The translations under genes were made by a program, and so were the position numbers. Of a stretch of DNA of 64,000 nt, positions 33,344-39,207 are shown in pieces. How positions within the stretch are numbered: the first letter of the stretch is position 1; each line of letters starts with the position of its first letter. The notes beneath the pieces are model-generated. The model searched no databases. It saw only the letters and a program-made list of their open reading frames with translations, and was not told the origin of the DNA. The stretch is taken from the NCBI RefSeq assembly GCF_010119205.1, contig NZ_WRXM01000002.1, positions 54,982 through 118,981 of the forward strand, written 5' to 3'. This DNA comes from Haloarcula limicola. GTDB lineage: Archaea; Halobacteriota; Halobacteria; Halobacteriales; Haloarculaceae.

Positions 33344-34128
33344 TCCGCCGAATCACCGTCGTCTCCGCCGTCGCTCTCTTCACTGCCTTCGCTCTCCGCG
33401 TCGCCGCGGTGTTCGGCCAGCGCCTCCTCGATGGTGTACGTGCCCTCGGCGACGTCGCGGGCCAGTTCCGCGTCGATGGCCCGATTGGTGTCGCTGACCT
33501 CCCGGGATCGGTCCTTGATGCGCTGGAGTTCGCCCGCCGTCGGCTCGACGTCGCGGCTCGTGATCTCCTCGCCCTCCAGTCGGGCGATGTTGACGGCGGC
33601 CAGCACGTCGCCCATCCCGCGCGCGCCGCTGCCGAGATACGGCGTCGTCCCCGTCTCGTCGACCAGTTCCACGGGGACGTCGGAGAGGTCGTCGACGAGG
33701 CGCGAGCCGACGAGTCGCGCGCCATCGCCGATGCGGACCACCGGGTCGGCGGCGTCTTCGACTTCGCGGTGGACGACCTCGGCGGCGTCGGCGGCCGGTA
33801 CCTGAAACGCGGCGACGACCATCTCGCCGTGCACGACGGCGACGCCGGGGCGCTCGCCGGGGTCGATGCCGACGATGGTGCGCCCGCTCTCGCCTCGAAG
33901 CGCCGCGATGGCCGCCTCGACCGCTCGCCGCGGCCGCTCGGGGTCGGCCTGCACGAGGTCGACGCCGTCCGGAATCTCGACGGCCTCGCCCGCCGCGATC
34001 ACCGCCACGTCGGTCTCCTCGGGCCACTCGTCGCCGGGTTCGATAGTCGTAAAGGCGGCGCCGCGGTCCCGCAGCTCCGTGACCACACCGTGGTACACCT
34101 CGAAATCCGCCGTCGCGACGACTATCAC
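33340..34128 (-). CDS. RuvC/YqgF-like RNase H-fold protein
   Basis: A 262-residue protein from GTG 34128. The open frame to 34287 lacks a promoter, while CACTTATAG at 34149-34157 lies about 25 bases before the GTG. The N-terminal third is a Rossmann-like region (STVIVVATADFEVYHG start). The core is TIVGIDPGERPGVAVVHG, the Asp-x-Gly-x-x-x-Gly pattern of RuvC-type RNase H folds, and it ends with GMGDVLAAVNIARLEG. The chain ends in an acidic Ser/Glu/Asp tail. Nuclease or structural recognition of nucleic acid is plausible but unproven. It is convergent with larC and divergent from the membrane protein gene. Confidence 0.72.
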   Translation of the reverse strand: MIVVATADFEVYHGVVTELRDRGAAFTTIEPGDEWPEETDVAVIAAGEAVEIPDGVDLVQADPERPRRAVEAAIAALRGESGRTIVGIDPGERPGVAVVHGEMVVAAFQVPAADAAEVVHREVEDAADPVVRIGDGARLVGSRLVDDLSDVPVELVDETGTTPYLGSGARGMGDVLAAVNIARLEGEEITSRDVEPTAGELQRIKDRSREVSDTNRAIDAELARDVAEGTYTIEEALAEHRGDAESEGSEESDGGDDGDSAD

Positions 34129-34222
34129 GGTCGAATCTTCAGCGTGTGGGCACTTATAGGGACTGTTGACTCCGAGCCGGCGACCCGTGAAGATATTGTG
34201 CTGGCGCGGGTATCCGCGGTCG

Positions 34223-35053
34223 ATGCCGCCCTCCACCGTCGAGACCGCCCCGGAGCGATCGGGTGACCCGCTGTTCGGCGTCGTCACCGGAATCTACCTC
34301 GCATTGCTCGCGACGCCGCTCGCCGCGTTCGCCGCCGTCCGAGCCGGAATGTCCGGTTCGGGCGTCCTCTACGGCGTCGTCCTCGTCACGCTGACCGTCG
34401 TCACCGGCCTCGGCTGGCTGGCGACGGCGCGAGCGGCGGGCGTCGACGCCCGCCTCGGTGCGTCCGCCGCTCGCTGGCTCCCCGGAATCGCGCCCGCGGC
34501 CCTCGTCCTCCTCGGATTCGCCTCGCTCGCCGCGACCGGGATCGCCGGCCTCCTCGCGTTCTTCTTCGGCATGTTCGCCATGATACTCGGGTTCGTCCTC
34601 GGCGTGATGGCGCGAACCAGATACGCCGTCGCAGCCACCGACGGCGTCGACCCCGACTGCGAGTTCACGGCCGGGTGGCCCGAACGGGCGCGCCGCCGCG
34701 TCCTCGCCGTCGCCGGCGTCCTCCTCGCCGTGACCGCCGCCGGGTTCGTCGCCGGGCTGGCCACGAACAGGGTCTGGCTCCAGACGGCCTCGCAGATCCT
34801 GTTCCCGCTCGGCATCGTCTTCGCTACGGCTGGCGAGGAGCGGACCTACGTCGCTTCGAGCGTGGGCGTCGAACAGCGGATGCCGGTCGCGCGGCGGCTC
34901 TTTCCGTGGGACGACTTCACCGGCTACACCCGAACCGACGACGCCATCGTCCTCCACCGTCCCCGCCGAATCGATTTCCGGTTCGCGCTCGCAGACTTGG
35001 ACGACCCGGACGCCGTCGAGCGAGCGCTCGGGGCGCGTCTCTCACCCTCGTGA
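34223..35053 (+). CDS. Multi-helix membrane protein with C-terminal PH-like domain
   Basis: A 276-residue protein from the ATG at 34223. A TATA-like GATATTGTG lies about 27 bases upstream; an in-frame TTG at 34166 is less likely. Helices are at about 21-40, 45-65, 85-100, 103-130, 160-180 and 185-200. After the last helix the sequence turns polar, with an aromatic, basic strand run (FPWDDFTGYTRTDDAIVLHRPRR) reminiscent of bacterial PH-like domains. Function is unknown. It precedes radB by 48 bases, but radB has its own TATA element. Confidence 0.65.
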   Translation: MPPSTVETAPERSGDPLFGVVTGIYLALLATPLAAFAAVRAGMSGSGVLYGVVLVTLTVVTGLGWLATARAAGVDARLGASAARWLPGIAPAALVLLGFASLAATGIAGLLAFFFGMFAMILGFVLGVMARTRYAVAATDGVDPDCEFTAGWPERARRRVLAVAGVLLAVTAAGFVAGLATNRVWLQTASQILFPLGIVFATAGEERTYVASSVGVEQRMPVARRLFPWDDFTGYTRTDDAIVLHRPRRIDFRFALADLDDPDAVERALGARLSPS

Positions 35054-35071
35054 ACCGAGTCGGTGCGAGCG

Positions 35072-35078
35072 TTTTTAT
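35072..35078 (+). promoter_or_regulatory. TATA element of radB
   Basis: TTTTTAT lies about 26 bases before the GTG start at 35102, indicating a leaderless transcript with a GTG start. Confidence 0.6.
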
Positions 35079-35101
35079 CCGGACACGTCTAACCCGCTCT
35101 C

Positions 35102-35818
35102 GTGACCGACCACGTCTCGACCGGCTGTGACCCGCTGGACGAGTTGCTGGGCGGCGGACTGGAGCGCGGGGCCGTCACGCAGGTGTACGGCCCGCCGGCG
35201 GCCGGCAAGACGAACCTCGCCCTCTCGGCGGCCATCGAAGTCGCCGCGGGTGGCGACGCCGCCCTCTACATCGACACCGAGGGCCTCTCGGCCGACCGGA
35301 TGCGCCAGATCGCCAGCGGCCGCGCCGCCGGGACGGACCAGACGGTCGACGACCTCGCGGGCCGCCTCATCGTCTCCGAGGTCTTCGACTACGACGAACA
35401 GGCCGAAGCCGTCCAGGACGCCGCCGAGTTCGCGCCCGAGATCGAGCTCGTCGTCCTCGACAGCGCTACCGGCTTCTACCGCCTCCAGCGGGACGACGAG
35501 GACGGCGGCGCGGCCCTCCGGGACGTGGCCCGACAGATCACCCATCTGCTCTCGCTGGCCCGCAAACACGACCTCGCCGTCGTCTTCACGAACCAGGTGT
35601 TCACCGACCCCGACAGCGACCGCTCGACCGCGCTGGGCGGCCACACGCTGAATCACTGGTCCGGTGCTATCCTCCGCATCGACCGCTTCCGCGGCGGCAA
35701 CCGCCGCGCCACGCTGGAGAAACACCGCGCGAAGGCCGCCGGCGACACCGCCCAGTTCCGCATCACCGACAAGGGGATGGCCGGCGACGACGGACAGCAA
35801 CCGCCGCGCCGGGAGTGA
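35102..35818 (+). CDS. radB: DNA repair and recombination protein RadB
   Basis: A 238-residue RecA-family protein without the N-terminal HhH domain of RadA. Walker A is GPPAAGKTNLAL (about 36-47). The Walker B region is ELVVLDSATGFYRL (about 115-128). A later segment KHDLAVVFTNQVFTDP and the ATP-site GGHTLNHWSGAILRI follow. RadB is a RadA paralogue that assists Holliday-junction and recombination steps in archaea. It starts at GTG, has its own TATA element, and is the last gene before the repeat region. Confidence 0.93.
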   Translation: MTDHVSTGCDPLDELLGGGLERGAVTQVYGPPAAGKTNLALSAAIEVAAGGDAALYIDTEGLSADRMRQIASGRAAGTDQTVDDLAGRLIVSEVFDYDEQAEAVQDAAEFAPEIELVVLDSATGFYRLQRDDEDGGAALRDVARQITHLLSLARKHDLAVVFTNQVFTDPDSDRSTALGGHTLNHWSGAILRIDRFRGGNRRATLEKHRAKAAGDTAQFRITDKGMAGDDGQQPPRRE

Positions 35819-35970
35819 AGTGAGCGGTGCGGTGAAGACACTCCCCATAGCGGTGGCGCGCACCCTCGCGGTTCACAGACCGCGAGGTACGCGCGAGGGA
35901 CGAGTAGCGCAGCGACGCGAGCAACGCAGTCGGTTGGGGTGGGCGTGGCTGTCGAGCGTCGGTGTGCGGG
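35819..35970. other. Gene-free stretch after radB with hairpin
   Basis: No gene is supported. CCTCGCGGT and ACCGCGAGG (35864-35887) form a 9-bp hairpin with a 6-base loop. More repeat-rich sequence leads into the 111-bp element. Confidence 0.5.
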
Positions 35971-36087
35971 AGAGCATACCGCGCCGGAGGCGCGGTTTCG
36001 CCGTCAGAACTCCGTTCTGACGAGCCTGCCGTCGCTGTGCTCCGGCAGACACCGAACTCGCGGCGTCGCCGCGAGTTCGGCCTTTTT
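35971..36087. repeat. Hairpin array element, copy 1 (111 bp core 35977-36087)
   Basis: The core differs by one base from a copy at 36958-37068; six flanking bases (35971-35976) match with one further mismatch. Four consecutive stems are visible: CCGCGCC/GGCGCGG around GGA, GTCAGAAC/GTTCTGAC around TCC, TGCCG/CGGCA, and an 11-bp stem GAACTCGCGGC/GCCGCGAGTTC around GTC. It ends in TTTTT. It lies 78 bases beyond the stop of the first phoU gene. Confidence 0.9.
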
Positions 36088-36092
36088 AGCGT

Positions 36093-36160
36093 AGATTTTT
36101 GCGCCGAGTGGTTCCCACAGCGCCGCGAAGCGGCGCGAGGAAACCCGAGGCGCAAAAAGG
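36093..36160. repeat. Additional hairpins between copy 1 and phoU
   Basis: GCGCCGC and GCGGCGC around GAA form one stem. TTTGCGCC and GGCGCAAA bracket it, about 36098 to 36155. The region reads like a nested cruciform next to the phoU stop. Confidence 0.6.
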
Positions 36161-36165
36161 TACTC

Positions 36166-36846
36166 TCAGTAGATGAGATCGTCGTCGTTCTCGACCATGT
36201 ACAGCGTGCGAGCGGCGATGTTGACGGCGTGGTCGCCGACGCGCTCGATGTCGCGGATCGTCAGCAGGAGCCGCGAGACGTCGGCCATCAGTTGCTCGAT
36301 CTCCGCGTCGCTGGTCTCGGCGTCGATCTCGCGCTCGATGAGGTCGCGGACGACCTCCTCGGAGGCCGCCTCACAGCGGCTGTCGACCTCGTCGTCGGTC
36401 TCGGCGATACTGTAACACAGCTCCGTGGCCTCGCGGTCGTAGGCGTCCATCGCGTTCTCGACCATCTCGATGACGACCTCGGCGACCTCCTGGATGTCGA
36501 CCTCGGGGTAGGCGTCGCGCTCGGCCTCCAGGGAGTACTCGCCGAGGTTGGTGGCGAGGTCGCCGATGCGTTCGAGGTCGGTGATGATCTTGAACGAGGC
36601 GGCGATGAAACGGAGGTCGGAGGCCACCGGTTGCTGGAGCGCCAGCAGGTCGATGCAGTCCTGCTCTAAGTCGAGATACAGCTGATTGATCTCGTCGTCG
36701 CCGTCGATGACCTGCCAGGCCATCTCCTCGTCCTTCTGTTCGAGGGCGGAGAGCCCCAACCGCAGCCGGTCGAGGACGACTTCAGACATGTAGAGGACGT
36801 CCTCGCGGACCGATTCGAGGAGTTCCTGATACGATTCTCGTGGCAT
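36166..36846 (-). CDS. phoU: PhoU domain protein, phosphate signalling (copy 1)
   Basis: A 226-residue protein from the ATG at 36846; an in-frame ATG at 36894 has no support. Two homologous three-helix bundles of the PhoU family are visible. Helix 2 of the first contains QDCIDLLALQQPVASDLRFIAASFKIITDLERIGDLATNLG, which gives the acidic metal-binding edge Glu-Arg-Ile-Gly-Asp. The second repeat ends RDIERVGDHAVNIAART. PhoU restrains phosphate uptake by contacting Pst and sensor kinases. No pst genes are near. A paralogue follows at 37186-37854, and the same hairpin element lies beyond both stops. Confidence 0.93.
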   Translation of the reverse strand: MPRESYQELLESVREDVLYMSEVVLDRLRLGLSALEQKDEEMAWQVIDGDDEINQLYLDLEQDCIDLLALQQPVASDLRFIAASFKIITDLERIGDLATNLGEYSLEAERDAYPEVDIQEVAEVVIEMVENAMDAYDREATELCYSIAETDDEVDSRCEAASEEVVRDLIEREIDAETSDAEIEQLMADVSRLLLTIRDIERVGDHAVNIAARTLYMVENDDDLIY

Positions 36847-36951
36847 AGCCCGTAGTGGCCCTGCCGAGTGTATCAGCCTTTCCCTTGGGCGCAAAATCCG
36901 CCTCCGGTCGGGAGCGAACGGGTACGTGCGGTCGCCGAAAGAGAGGTGTAA

Positions 36952-37068
36952 AGAGCGTACCGCGCCGGAGGCGCGGTTTCGCCGTCAGAACTCCGTTCTG
37001 ACGAGCCTGCCGTCGCTGTGCTCCGGCAGACACCGAACTCGCGGCATCGCCGCGAGTTCGGCCTTTTT
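36952..37068. repeat. Hairpin array element, copy 2 (111 bp core 36958-37068)
   Basis: The core matches copy 1 at 110 of 111 positions in the same orientation. It lies between phoU copy 1 and copy 2. It is placed 117 bases beyond the stop of phoU copy 2, so each phoU gene has one copy downstream. Confidence 0.9.
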
Positions 37069-37185
37069 CGTGAACGTTTTTCGAGTCGAGCGGGACCGAA
37101 GGTCCCGCTGACCGTGCGAACGGGCGCTTCGCGCCCGTGAGCAGAGCGTGGTTCGCGCTCCGCGCGAACCCACTGAAGAAAAAGT
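37069..37185. repeat. Further hairpins between copy 2 and the second phoU
   Basis: Three perfect hairpins with three-base loops: GCGGGACC/GGTCCCGC around GAA (37090-37108), ACGGGCGC/GCGCCCGT around TTC (37120-37138), and GGTTCGCGC/GCGCGAACC around TCC (37150-37170). The last shares its arm (CGTGGTTCGCGC) with the palindrome at 11088. No gene is supported between 36847 and 37185. Confidence 0.8.
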
Positions 37186-37854
37186 TCAGTAGATGAGTTC
37201 GTCGCTGCTCTCGACCATGTACAGGGTTCGAGCGGCGATGTTGACAGCGTGGTCGCCGATCCGTTCGAGGTCCCGAACCGTGAGGAGGAAGCGCTGGGTG
37301 TCGGCCATCAGCGACTCCAGTTCGTCCTCCTCGGGGGCCTGGTTGACCAGCGAGCGGACGAGGTCGTCGGTGGCGGCCGCACAGCGCTGGTCGAGGTCGG
37401 TGTCGGCGGCGGCGACCGTCCGACAGCGCTCGGCGTCGCGCTCCTCGTAGGCGGTCATCGCGCCGTCGAGTTGAGCCAGCGCCATGTCGGCGATGTCGGC
37501 GATGGGGACGTTCGGGATGGTCTCCGACTCCATCTCGTGGGCGTACGCCCCGAGGTTGGACGCGAGGTCGGCGATGCGTTCGAGGTCGGTGAGTATCTTG
37601 AACGAGGCGGCGATGAAGCGCAGGTCCGAGGCCACCGGCTGCTGGAGCGCGATGAGGTCGATGCAGTCCCGTTCGAGTTCGAGGTAGCGCTCGTTTATCT
37701 CGTCGTCGGCCTCGGCGACGGCGCGGCCCATCGCTGGATCGCGTCGCTCGTAGGCGGTGACGGCGCGGTCGAGGCGGTCGGTGACGTCCTCGCCCATCGC
37801 ACGAATGTCGGCCCGTAACGCGTCGAGGTCCGACTCGAAGCTGTCACGCGTCAT
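37186..37854 (-). CDS. phoU: PhoU domain protein, phosphate signalling (copy 2)
   Basis: A 222-residue paralogue of the protein at 36166-36846. Conserved blocks are shared, such as IALQQPVASDLRFIAASFK, LTDLERIADLASNLG and a C-terminal RDLERIGDHAVNIAART. Outside these blocks the two proteins have diverged clearly. The metal-binding acidic positions are retained in both repeats. The ATG at 37854 is preceded by an A/T-rich GATATC at 37882-37887, suggesting its own promoter. It may serve another Pst system or another partner. Confidence 0.93.
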   Translation of the reverse strand: MTRDSFESDLDALRADIRAMGEDVTDRLDRAVTAYERRDPAMGRAVAEADDEINERYLELERDCIDLIALQQPVASDLRFIAASFKILTDLERIADLASNLGAYAHEMESETIPNVPIADIADMALAQLDGAMTAYEERDAERCRTVAAADTDLDQRCAAATDDLVRSLVNQAPEEDELESLMADTQRFLLTVRDLERIGDHAVNIAARTLYMVESSDELIY

Positions 37855-38057
37855 CTGTCAGAAGTGTGTATCCGTTGAGATATCAGTGTGGCGGCCGTCG
37901 ACGTTCGGCCGCGGCGGGGCGGCCCGTGAGGCGGTCGGGGTAGCCCTGAAAAGTCGGCCACTCGACCGACTCCTAACGCCACGTGCACCGGACTCCGTCA
38001 GGCGACGGACCGGCGCGGCCGCTACCCGTCTTCGACGCGTCCGCGAGAAGCGAACAG

Positions 38058-38261
38058 TTACTCCCCGTTCAGGGTGAGGGTGTGCTCTCTGAGGGCACCG
38101 CACGACGGACATTCGTGTTCGTAGTGGATCTCGCGGCCGTCCGTCTCGCTCGACCAGCTGCCGTCTTCGTCCTCGTAGCCGCAGTCCGGACAGACGAGTT
38201 CCGTCTCGTCGTAGTGGTGTTTGAGCAGTTCCATGGGGGACTTCTCGCTGTGTCCTTCCAT
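38058..38261 (-). CDS. 67-residue zinc-ribbon protein (HVO_0649-like)
   Basis: A small protein with a single zinc ribbon: Cys24-x2-Cys27 (CPDCG) and Cys51-x2-Cys54 (CPSCG), 24 residues apart. A strand-rich core with Trp36 and an aromatic His-Tyr pair sits between them. This resembles the haloarchaeal group I recall as the HVO_0649 zinc-finger family. An A/T-rich AAAAAATATT at 38287-38296 lies about 30 bases upstream of the minus-strand ATG. No partner is suggested by context. Confidence 0.75.
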   Translation of the reverse strand: MEGHSEKSPMELLKHHYDETELVCPDCGYEDEDGSWSSETDGREIHYEHECPSCGALREHTLTLNGE

Positions 38262-38407
38262 ACGACACGGGAGTGTTTCGGATACAAAAAATATTCCGGT
38301 GCTACATTTTCGTATAGCTATTCGACCAGCTCTATATTTTCTATCGAATTATTTCGGCTAGCCGGCACCGAATAGACGCCTCTCTCGGGAGAGAGCGAGC
38401 ACAACCG

Positions 38408-38416
38408 CTATTATCG
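38408..38416 (+). promoter_or_regulatory. TATA element of the Lrp-TrkA_C regulator
   Basis: CTATTATCG lies about 26 bases before the ATG at 38437. Confidence 0.5.
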
Positions 38417-38436
38417 ATACGAAAGAAACGTCCGGC

Positions 38437-39207
38437 ATGGATTATCGAATCGACGAGATCGATCGTCGCATTCTCTATCATCTCGCGGTCGACGCGCGCG
38501 GGACGGCCGCGCCGAAGATCGCCGAGGAGGTCGACGTCACGCCGGCGACGATCCGTAACCGCATCCGGCAACTGGAGGAAGCGGGCGTCGTCCGGGGTTA
38601 TCACGCCCAGATAGACTACGAGGCGATCGACGGGCGACTGACGATGCAGTTCACCTGCAGCGCGCCCGTCGATACCCAGTCTGACCTCGCGCGCGACATC
38701 GGCCGGGTCTCGGGCGTGGTTCGCGTCAGCGAGCTGATGGCCGGCCAGCAGAACCTGCTGGTCACCGTCGTCGGGACCGACACCGACGATACAGCCCGGA
38801 TCGCTCGCCAGCTGTCGGACCTGGGCGTGACTATCGACCGGGAGGCCATCGTCCGAGACGAGGCGTTTTATCCCTACCAGCAGTTCGGCCCGGAGGACGG
38901 CCCCCCGCAGACCGCGATTCGGGACTTTCAGAGCGTCGCCGGCGGGGCCGAAGTCGTGGAGTTCACCGTCTCCGAGGACGCCGAGATAACGGGACAGACC
39001 CTGGCGGAAGCGAACCGCACCGGACTGCTTCCGGACGAGGTGCTCGTCGTGAGCATCGAACGCGGCGACGCCCGGCTCACGCCGAACGGCGACACCACCG
39101 TCGAAGCGGGCGACGTGGTGTCGGTGTTCTCACCGGAGACGTTCCCGGAACAGCTAGTCGAGGCGTTCGAGTGCGGGGACGAAGCGGCCGACGGAACGCA
39201 CCGATAG
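38437..39207 (+). CDS. Lrp/AsnC-type regulator fused to a TrkA-C (RCK_C) domain
   Basis: A 256-residue protein. Residues 1-60 are an AsnC-type winged helix (IDRRILYHLAVDARGTAAPKIAEEVDVTPATIRNRIRQLEEAGVVRGY). An Lrp ligand-binding (RAM-like) domain covers about 65-145. From about 170 a TrkA-C/RCK_C domain begins, with VVEFTVSEDAEITGQTLAEAN, LPDEVLVVSIERGDARLTPNGDTTVEAGDVVSVFSPE. The architecture suggests direct control of transcription by a nucleotide or cation signal sensed by the RCK_C part. The trkH gene follows 215 bases later on the same strand, so potassium-uptake control is the likely role, by inference. Confidence 0.88.
   Translation: MDYRIDEIDRRILYHLAVDARGTAAPKIAEEVDVTPATIRNRIRQLEEAGVVRGYHAQIDYEAIDGRLTMQFTCSAPVDTQSDLARDIGRVSGVVRVSELMAGQQNLLVTVVGTDTDDTARIARQLSDLGVTIDREAIVRDEAFYPYQQFGPEDGPPQTAIRDFQSVAGGAEVVEFTVSEDAEITGQTLAEANRTGLLPDEVLVVSIERGDARLTPNGDTTVEAGDVVSVFSPETFPEQLVEAFECGDEAADGTHR

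Follow-up and report, generated by a model that had tools for sequence, protein, structure and literature searches.

An apparently undescribed family of hairpin cassettes at the gene ends of salt-loving archaea

Bacterial intrinsic terminators that work in both directions are built in the order A tract, stem-loop, T tract, with one palindrome for two converging transcripts. In haloarchaea, the portions of the literature on which we draw describe terminators so far as simple T stretches, at times with a hairpin: a T5C tract ended 95% of transcripts in Haloferax volcanii, where 503 mapped 3' ends had hairpins upstream of them (PMC7237163), and terminator U-tracts are bound by archaeal aCPSF1 (PMC8716108). 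The locus described here lies in a window of 64,000 nucleotides of the Haloarcula limicola genome (contig NZ_WRXM01000002.1, positions 54,982 to 118,981), in which two phoU genes end at a cassette that combines several hairpins with T tracts on both strands. We found no published description of this cassette in the open PMC literature, exact-sequence search included, and the family of hairpin cassettes to which it belongs is apparently undescribed.

A sequence-only reading of the window had pointed out that positions 35977-36087 and 36958-37068 agree at 110 of 111 positions in the same orientation, one copy beyond each phoU stop codon, and that each unit consists of four hairpins and a T5 tract. 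All of this was confirmed (E about 4e-51); the tract reads CCTTTTT, and the sole mismatch is a G/A difference in the loop of the fourth hairpin (H4). The homology is lost within about 6 bp on the left side (AGAGC, with one mismatch) and stops at the T5 on the right. The RNA fold z-scores of the cassettes range from -8.2 to -9.3, with no shuffle folding equally well. Both genes encode PhoU (PF01895), and named phoU relatives put the genome within Haloarcula or beside it. The two proteins had been described as clearly diverged outside conserved blocks; phoU1 and phoU2 are 70% identical in DNA (464/662), and therefore a recent duplication of the whole phoU unit is ruled out, an explanation that is also countered by species with adjacent phoU pairs and no element between them.

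The 111 bp are, however, only the left half of a longer cassette, which is ordered H1-H2-H3-H4-T5-8-nt word-T5-long hairpin (H5)-A5-trailer and whose end adjoins an opposite-strand stop codon. To the right of the 111 bp follow the word, the second T5, the long hairpin region and an A5 abutting the phoU stop (36088-36163 and 37069-37187). Read on the phoU strand, the phoU1 copy runs stop, 2 nt, GTACC, TTTTT, H5, AAAAA, word, AAAAA, GG, H4, H3, H2, H1. In both phoU cassettes, each strand is thus faced by a T tract. The earlier statement that the T tract faces the strand opposite to phoU holds for the first T5 and is incomplete for the cassette, as the A5 beside the phoU stop is a T5 that faces the phoU strand. 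The features are:

35102-35818: gene of the RecA/Rad51 superfamily, converging on phoU1
35978-35996, plus strand: hairpin H1 of the phoU1-side cassette, arms ACCGCGCC/GGCGCGGT
36002-36022, plus strand: H2, phoU1 side, arms CGTCAGAAC/GTTCTGACG
36026-36048, plus strand: H3, phoU1 side, arms CTGCCG/CGGCAG
36052-36080, plus strand: H4, phoU1 side, arms CCGAACTCGCGGC.../...GCCGCGAGTTCGG, shared more widely than any other module of the 111-bp unit
36083-36087, plus strand: first T5, phoU1 side, putative plus-strand terminator (of gene 35102-35818 or of an antisense RNA)
36088-36095, plus strand: 8-nt word AGCGTAGA, phoU1 side; within it, GTA (36091-36093) forms pairs with TAC (36161-36163)
36096-36100, plus strand: second T5, phoU1 side, pairing with the A5 at 36154-36158
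36101-36153, no strand assigned: long hairpin H5, phoU1 side, between the T5 and A5 tracts
36154-36163, minus strand: A5 and GGTAC trailer, phoU1 side, which on the phoU strand read GTACC-TTTTT from 2 nt past the phoU1 stop (36166-36168)
36166-36846, minus strand: phoU1, stop codon to start
36959-36977, plus strand: H1 of the phoU2-side cassette
36983-37003, plus strand: H2, phoU2 side
37007-37029, plus strand: H3, phoU2 side
37033-37061, plus strand: H4, phoU2 side
37064-37068, plus strand: first T5, phoU2 side
37069-37081, plus strand: word CGTGAACG and second T5, phoU2 side; triplet GAA can pair with TTC at 37185-37187
37082-37178, no strand assigned: H5 region, phoU2 side, in a three-hairpin form (37090-37108, 37120-37138, 37150-37170)
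37179-37187, minus strand: A5 and GTTC trailer, phoU2 side, in overlap with the phoU2 stop (37186-37188); the A5 is a T5 when read on the phoU strand
37186-37854, minus strand: phoU2, stop codon to start

The phoU2 cassette has three hairpins where the phoU1 copy has the single H5, and two of its inner hairpins (37082-37140) recur nearly unchanged in another Haloarcula (L246), there at the 3' site of phoU1. In many cores (e.g. 36101-36153), the basal part of the H5 arms often has GAGYGG...CCCGA and the upper part C(G/A)CAG...CGAGG, which are possible conserved internal loops with tandem G-A pairs. Outside the cassette, the repeat GAGCAACGCAGTCGGTTGGGG stands in exact form before H1 in two cassettes (35919-35939 of the window and C1:562077-562097 of genome G000) and has two further occurrences with 2 mismatches, and similar CCCCAGCCGACTGCGTTGCTCGGCTCGC stretches lie beyond the phoU1 cassette in many Haloarcula.

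The word has the form NNN-xyA-NN, in which xyA is reverse-complementary to a triplet of the trailer on the far side of the A5: CGCCCACG goes with GGTGG, AGCGTAGA with GGTAC, CATCGACG with GGTCG, CATGAACG with GGTTC, GTACTAAA with TTTAG and GGAGGAGA with GGTCC. With a core search pattern that fixes the T5 and A5 and leaves the word and trailer triplets free, exact pairing was seen in 112 of 125 distinct 8-nt-word cores, whereas 2000 shuffles of the trailers produced 33 on average and never more than 50; the non-pairing cores mostly show a one-base shift, a G-U wobble or one mismatch. Among 42 distinct sequences, 95.2% of the paired cells were complementary, compared with 26-39% when the columns were slid by 1-3 positions, and 44 cells carried compensatory changes on both sides. 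The GUA:UAC closure was also predicted by RNA folding of the window copy. The 2 bases between triplet and T5 remain mismatched in most copies, and it is therefore unlikely that quasipalindrome correction alone produced the covariation. It is the structure of the cassette that is constrained and probably under selection, not its sequence.

Cassettes of this kind are not confined to phoU. In the genome, the 111-bp query found about six near-full copies along with numerous partial ones, which are mostly H4-T5 or H1, and it matched 24 of the 32 genomes of the genus, the longest matches being 75-87% identical. All genome counts derive from searches and fetched stretches; the census is pattern-based, with a strict core defined as T5, 6-9 nt, T5, 30-60 nt, A5 and the reversed pattern as control. 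This core had 39 matches at 35 distinct, scattered sites in the genome (reversed pattern, 0), and it was present in 31 of the 32 genus genomes and in 342 of 392 genomes of the order, where the reversed controls were mostly zero or few. In other orders of the phylum, core counts equalled the reversed control, and the listed matches lacked GC-rich hairpins. One large genus (g20 of family f4) is almost without cores while sister families have tens, which suggests loss or a different style of terminator. The relative G005 carries identical or near-identical cores in tandem (C1:56503-56930, 3341567-3341994, 587566-587949 and 1093167-1093387), two of them being three-copy arrays with a 186-bp period and equal sequence at both loci and the others having periods of about 154-164 bp, which suggests local amplification. 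In H. amylovorans (L052/L222) and the matching genome G002, a run of N, i.e., an assembly gap, follows soon after the H1 module beyond phoU1, and repeats may thus break assemblies at that site.

The cores are also placed non-randomly relative to genes, which were called with an in-house codon model for the genome's own neighbours. The 35 own cores lie between gene pairs of the types (+,-) in 12 cases, (-,-) in 11, (+,+) in 9 and (-,+) in 3, compared with 20, 40, 32 and 20 background gene pairs, respectively; divergent gaps thus hold only 3 of the 35, and tandem (-,-) contexts are about as frequent as convergent ones. An opposite-strand stop codon lies 1-9 nt from the A5 in 15 of these 35 cores, including all seven with the word AGCGTAGA. 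Across many species, with opposite-strand frames of at least 150 codons, such a stop was found within 12 nt of the T5 in 61 of 124 cores, at 1-11 nt, compared with 2.5% of random positions, with modes at 4 and 6 nt; by word type, this applied to 24 of 31 GTA, 5 of 5 GAA, 19 of 52 CCA and 2 of 20 CGA cores. As half of the cores have no opposite-strand stop beside them, with CGA words as the extreme, many may serve the left gene only.

Why, then, are the two phoU copies so similar? The sequence-only reading had considered recent copying, conversion or tight constraint, and it is copying or conversion that stands. In the window, the phoU1- and phoU2-side cassettes are 99% identical in the H4-H1 half and 46% in the H5 half; in G002, the corresponding values are 71% and 99%, in G021 65% and 53%, and in G016 76% and 58%. 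The orthologous H4-H1 halves of the window and G002 agree at only 43% of positions, although the two phoU1 coding sequences are 94% identical, and tight sequence constraint is therefore rejected. The homogenisation struck different halves in two lineages and occurred independently in the two species. Throughout Haloarcula, the phoU1 3' site usually holds a cassette, with dialects switching between close species; the presence of the element at the phoU2-phoU1 site varies among species, and relatives lack H2 and H3 at the phoU site and retain H4-T5 and T5-H5-A5. The homogenisation of different halves fits ectopic exchange or cassette copying; the phoU copies match through recent exchange rather than constraint. 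Gene conversion is efficient in a polyploid haloarchaeon, and the conversion tracts measured in Haloferax are long, spanning hundreds of bp up to kb (PMC8223754). What the phoU cassettes share is a sharply bounded tract of about 115 bp, which agrees with cassette copying too; as the known tracts are longer, the recombination route can only be proposed.

We consider it likely that the element is a two-way transcription-termination cassette whose structure is selected and whose modules spread by ectopic exchange. A polymerase coming from the left would pass through H1-H4 and meet CCTTTTT and then the second T5, and a polymerase from the right would meet a T5 a few nucleotides past the stop of the gene just read. 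H5 would lie between the two release zones, with the T5:A5 base and the covarying triplet closing one extended stem, and the cassette would prevent neighbouring or antisense transcripts from extending into one another. At phoU1, it would separate this gene from the converging RecA/Rad51-superfamily gene, and at phoU2, it would end the phoU2 transcript and halt plus-strand antisense RNA from the phoU1 promoter region. Ectopic recombination or gene conversion may replace half-cassettes, either H1-H4 or H5, or copy them among sites, and this would account for the 110/111 agreement. If both T5 tracts function, H5 is in neither mature RNA, and its stem would then have to serve in read-through RNA or in DNA. 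A bolder version, which we regard as rather doubtful, is that of an order-wide haloarchaeal two-way terminator of inverted polarity, in which the central palindrome outside both transcripts is a DNA-level barrier between converging polymerases and the closing triplets form a small vocabulary of interchangeable dialects, which loci exchange in the form of cassettes.

The dispersal of copies, which had been anticipated as the mark of a REP/MITE-like family, was indeed found and shows that the element is not a regulatory element linked to phoU; the fixed polarity, the gene-end sites and the covarying stem disfavour a plain family of that type. A selfish mobile repeat resembling REP/BIME or MITE elements and inserting at gene ends, with terminator activity as an incidental property, would agree with dispersed copies and modular mosaics, with a phoU2-phoU1 site that is occupied or empty depending on the species, with near-identical copies at distant sites and with the tandem arrays in one relative. 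We nevertheless consider it unlikely, given that the genome has no IS200/IS605 Y1 transposase (the search was positive in 5 of 14 control genomes), that the 111-bp unit has no terminal inverted repeats, that the T5/A5 ends keep a fixed short distance to stop codons, that orthologous sites retain the element with its sequence replaced, and that it is present across most genera of an order. A reading specific to phosphate response, with an element conserved at both paralogues, has next to no probability left: both phoU 3' ends carry the cassette in the window genome, G002, G021 and G016, but neither does in L224 and L229, L225 and L226 use a different word dialect at each of the two sites, and copies are scattered over unrelated genes, so that the genome-wide distribution refutes it.

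Two further explanations concern single parts of the cassette. H5 might act as DNA: where polymerases converge, it could form a cruciform, or a palindrome bound by protein, and serve as a supercoil sink or road block. This would explain why stem and triplet covary although they are outside both mature transcripts if the T5 tracts terminate, and why a T tract precedes the hairpin on both strands, unlike in textbook bidirectional terminators. The 2-nt internal mismatch beside the triplet is retained in most copies, however, and RNA folding predicts the same stem, so that action as DNA and as RNA look alike here, and we hold this explanation to be quite improbable. That H1-H4 is an RNA stability or processing module of 3' UTRs and no terminator is suggested by four consecutive stable hairpins before the T5, but the relatives, in which H2 and H3 are missing at this site and both H4-T5 and T5-H5-A5 are present, make it very improbable.

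If the two-way terminator reading is true, a compound, structurally conserved, order-wide cassette would offer annotation a recognisable mark of gene ends, and genetics a portable terminator that works both ways. The cassette is also a clear case of structure being kept while exchange within the genome replaces the sequence again and again. From the triplet dialects it can be predicted that a swap on one side breaks the stem and a swap on both sides restores it. The most interesting point is that the H5 stem is conserved though it would be outside both RNAs if both T5 tracts work.

How does the cassette relate to known elements? The window region 34000-39000 gave only two weak Rfam matches, far below the gathering score. 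With the MITEs, PATEs and SMRs of Haloquadratum, the cassette shares being a small haloarchaeal repeat (SMR-A has about 110 bp); unlike it, the MITEs and SMRs carry inverted terminal repeats, and the PATEs have ends related to IS605-type transposons (PMC3119063), whereas our search for a Y1 transposase was negative. The 111-bp unit ends in TACCGCGCC... and ...GGCCTTTTT, without terminal inverted repeats, and no flanking (target-site) duplication was seen around the two phoU copies. REP/BIME elements with GTAG or CGTC tags are likewise short palindromic extragenic repeats, mosaic and downstream of genes (PMC3733652), but the cassette has T5/A5 ends and triplet covariation and no fixed tag tetranucleotide at the hairpin foot; neither GTAG nor CGTC was found there, and the foot triplets vary (CCA, GTA, CGA, GAA, GCA, GGA, CTA). 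A REP driven by IS200/RAYT was rejected, as the genome gave 0 matches to the RAYT transposase (Y1_Tnp, PF01797). The archaeal U-tract terminators, aCPSF1/FttA-assisted and including T5C of Haloferax volcanii, have in common with the cassette the T5 at the gene end and the hairpin upstream of one, and in the cited portions of the reports (PMC7237163, PMC8716108) they appear as single tracts or hairpins, whereas the cassette is compound: a long covarying palindrome is flanked by a T5 on either strand, and sequence dialects are shared across the order. Their position just past genes is matched by the cores, as seen from the stop-codon distances above. With bacterial bidirectional intrinsic terminators, the cassette shares one palindrome that serves two converging transcripts, but the polarity of its core is inverted, to T tract-stem-stem-A tract (T5..A5 versus A5..T5, 63 to 13, overlapping matches included) in place of a 5' A tract and a 3' T tract, and each polymerase would therefore reach a T tract before the hairpin.
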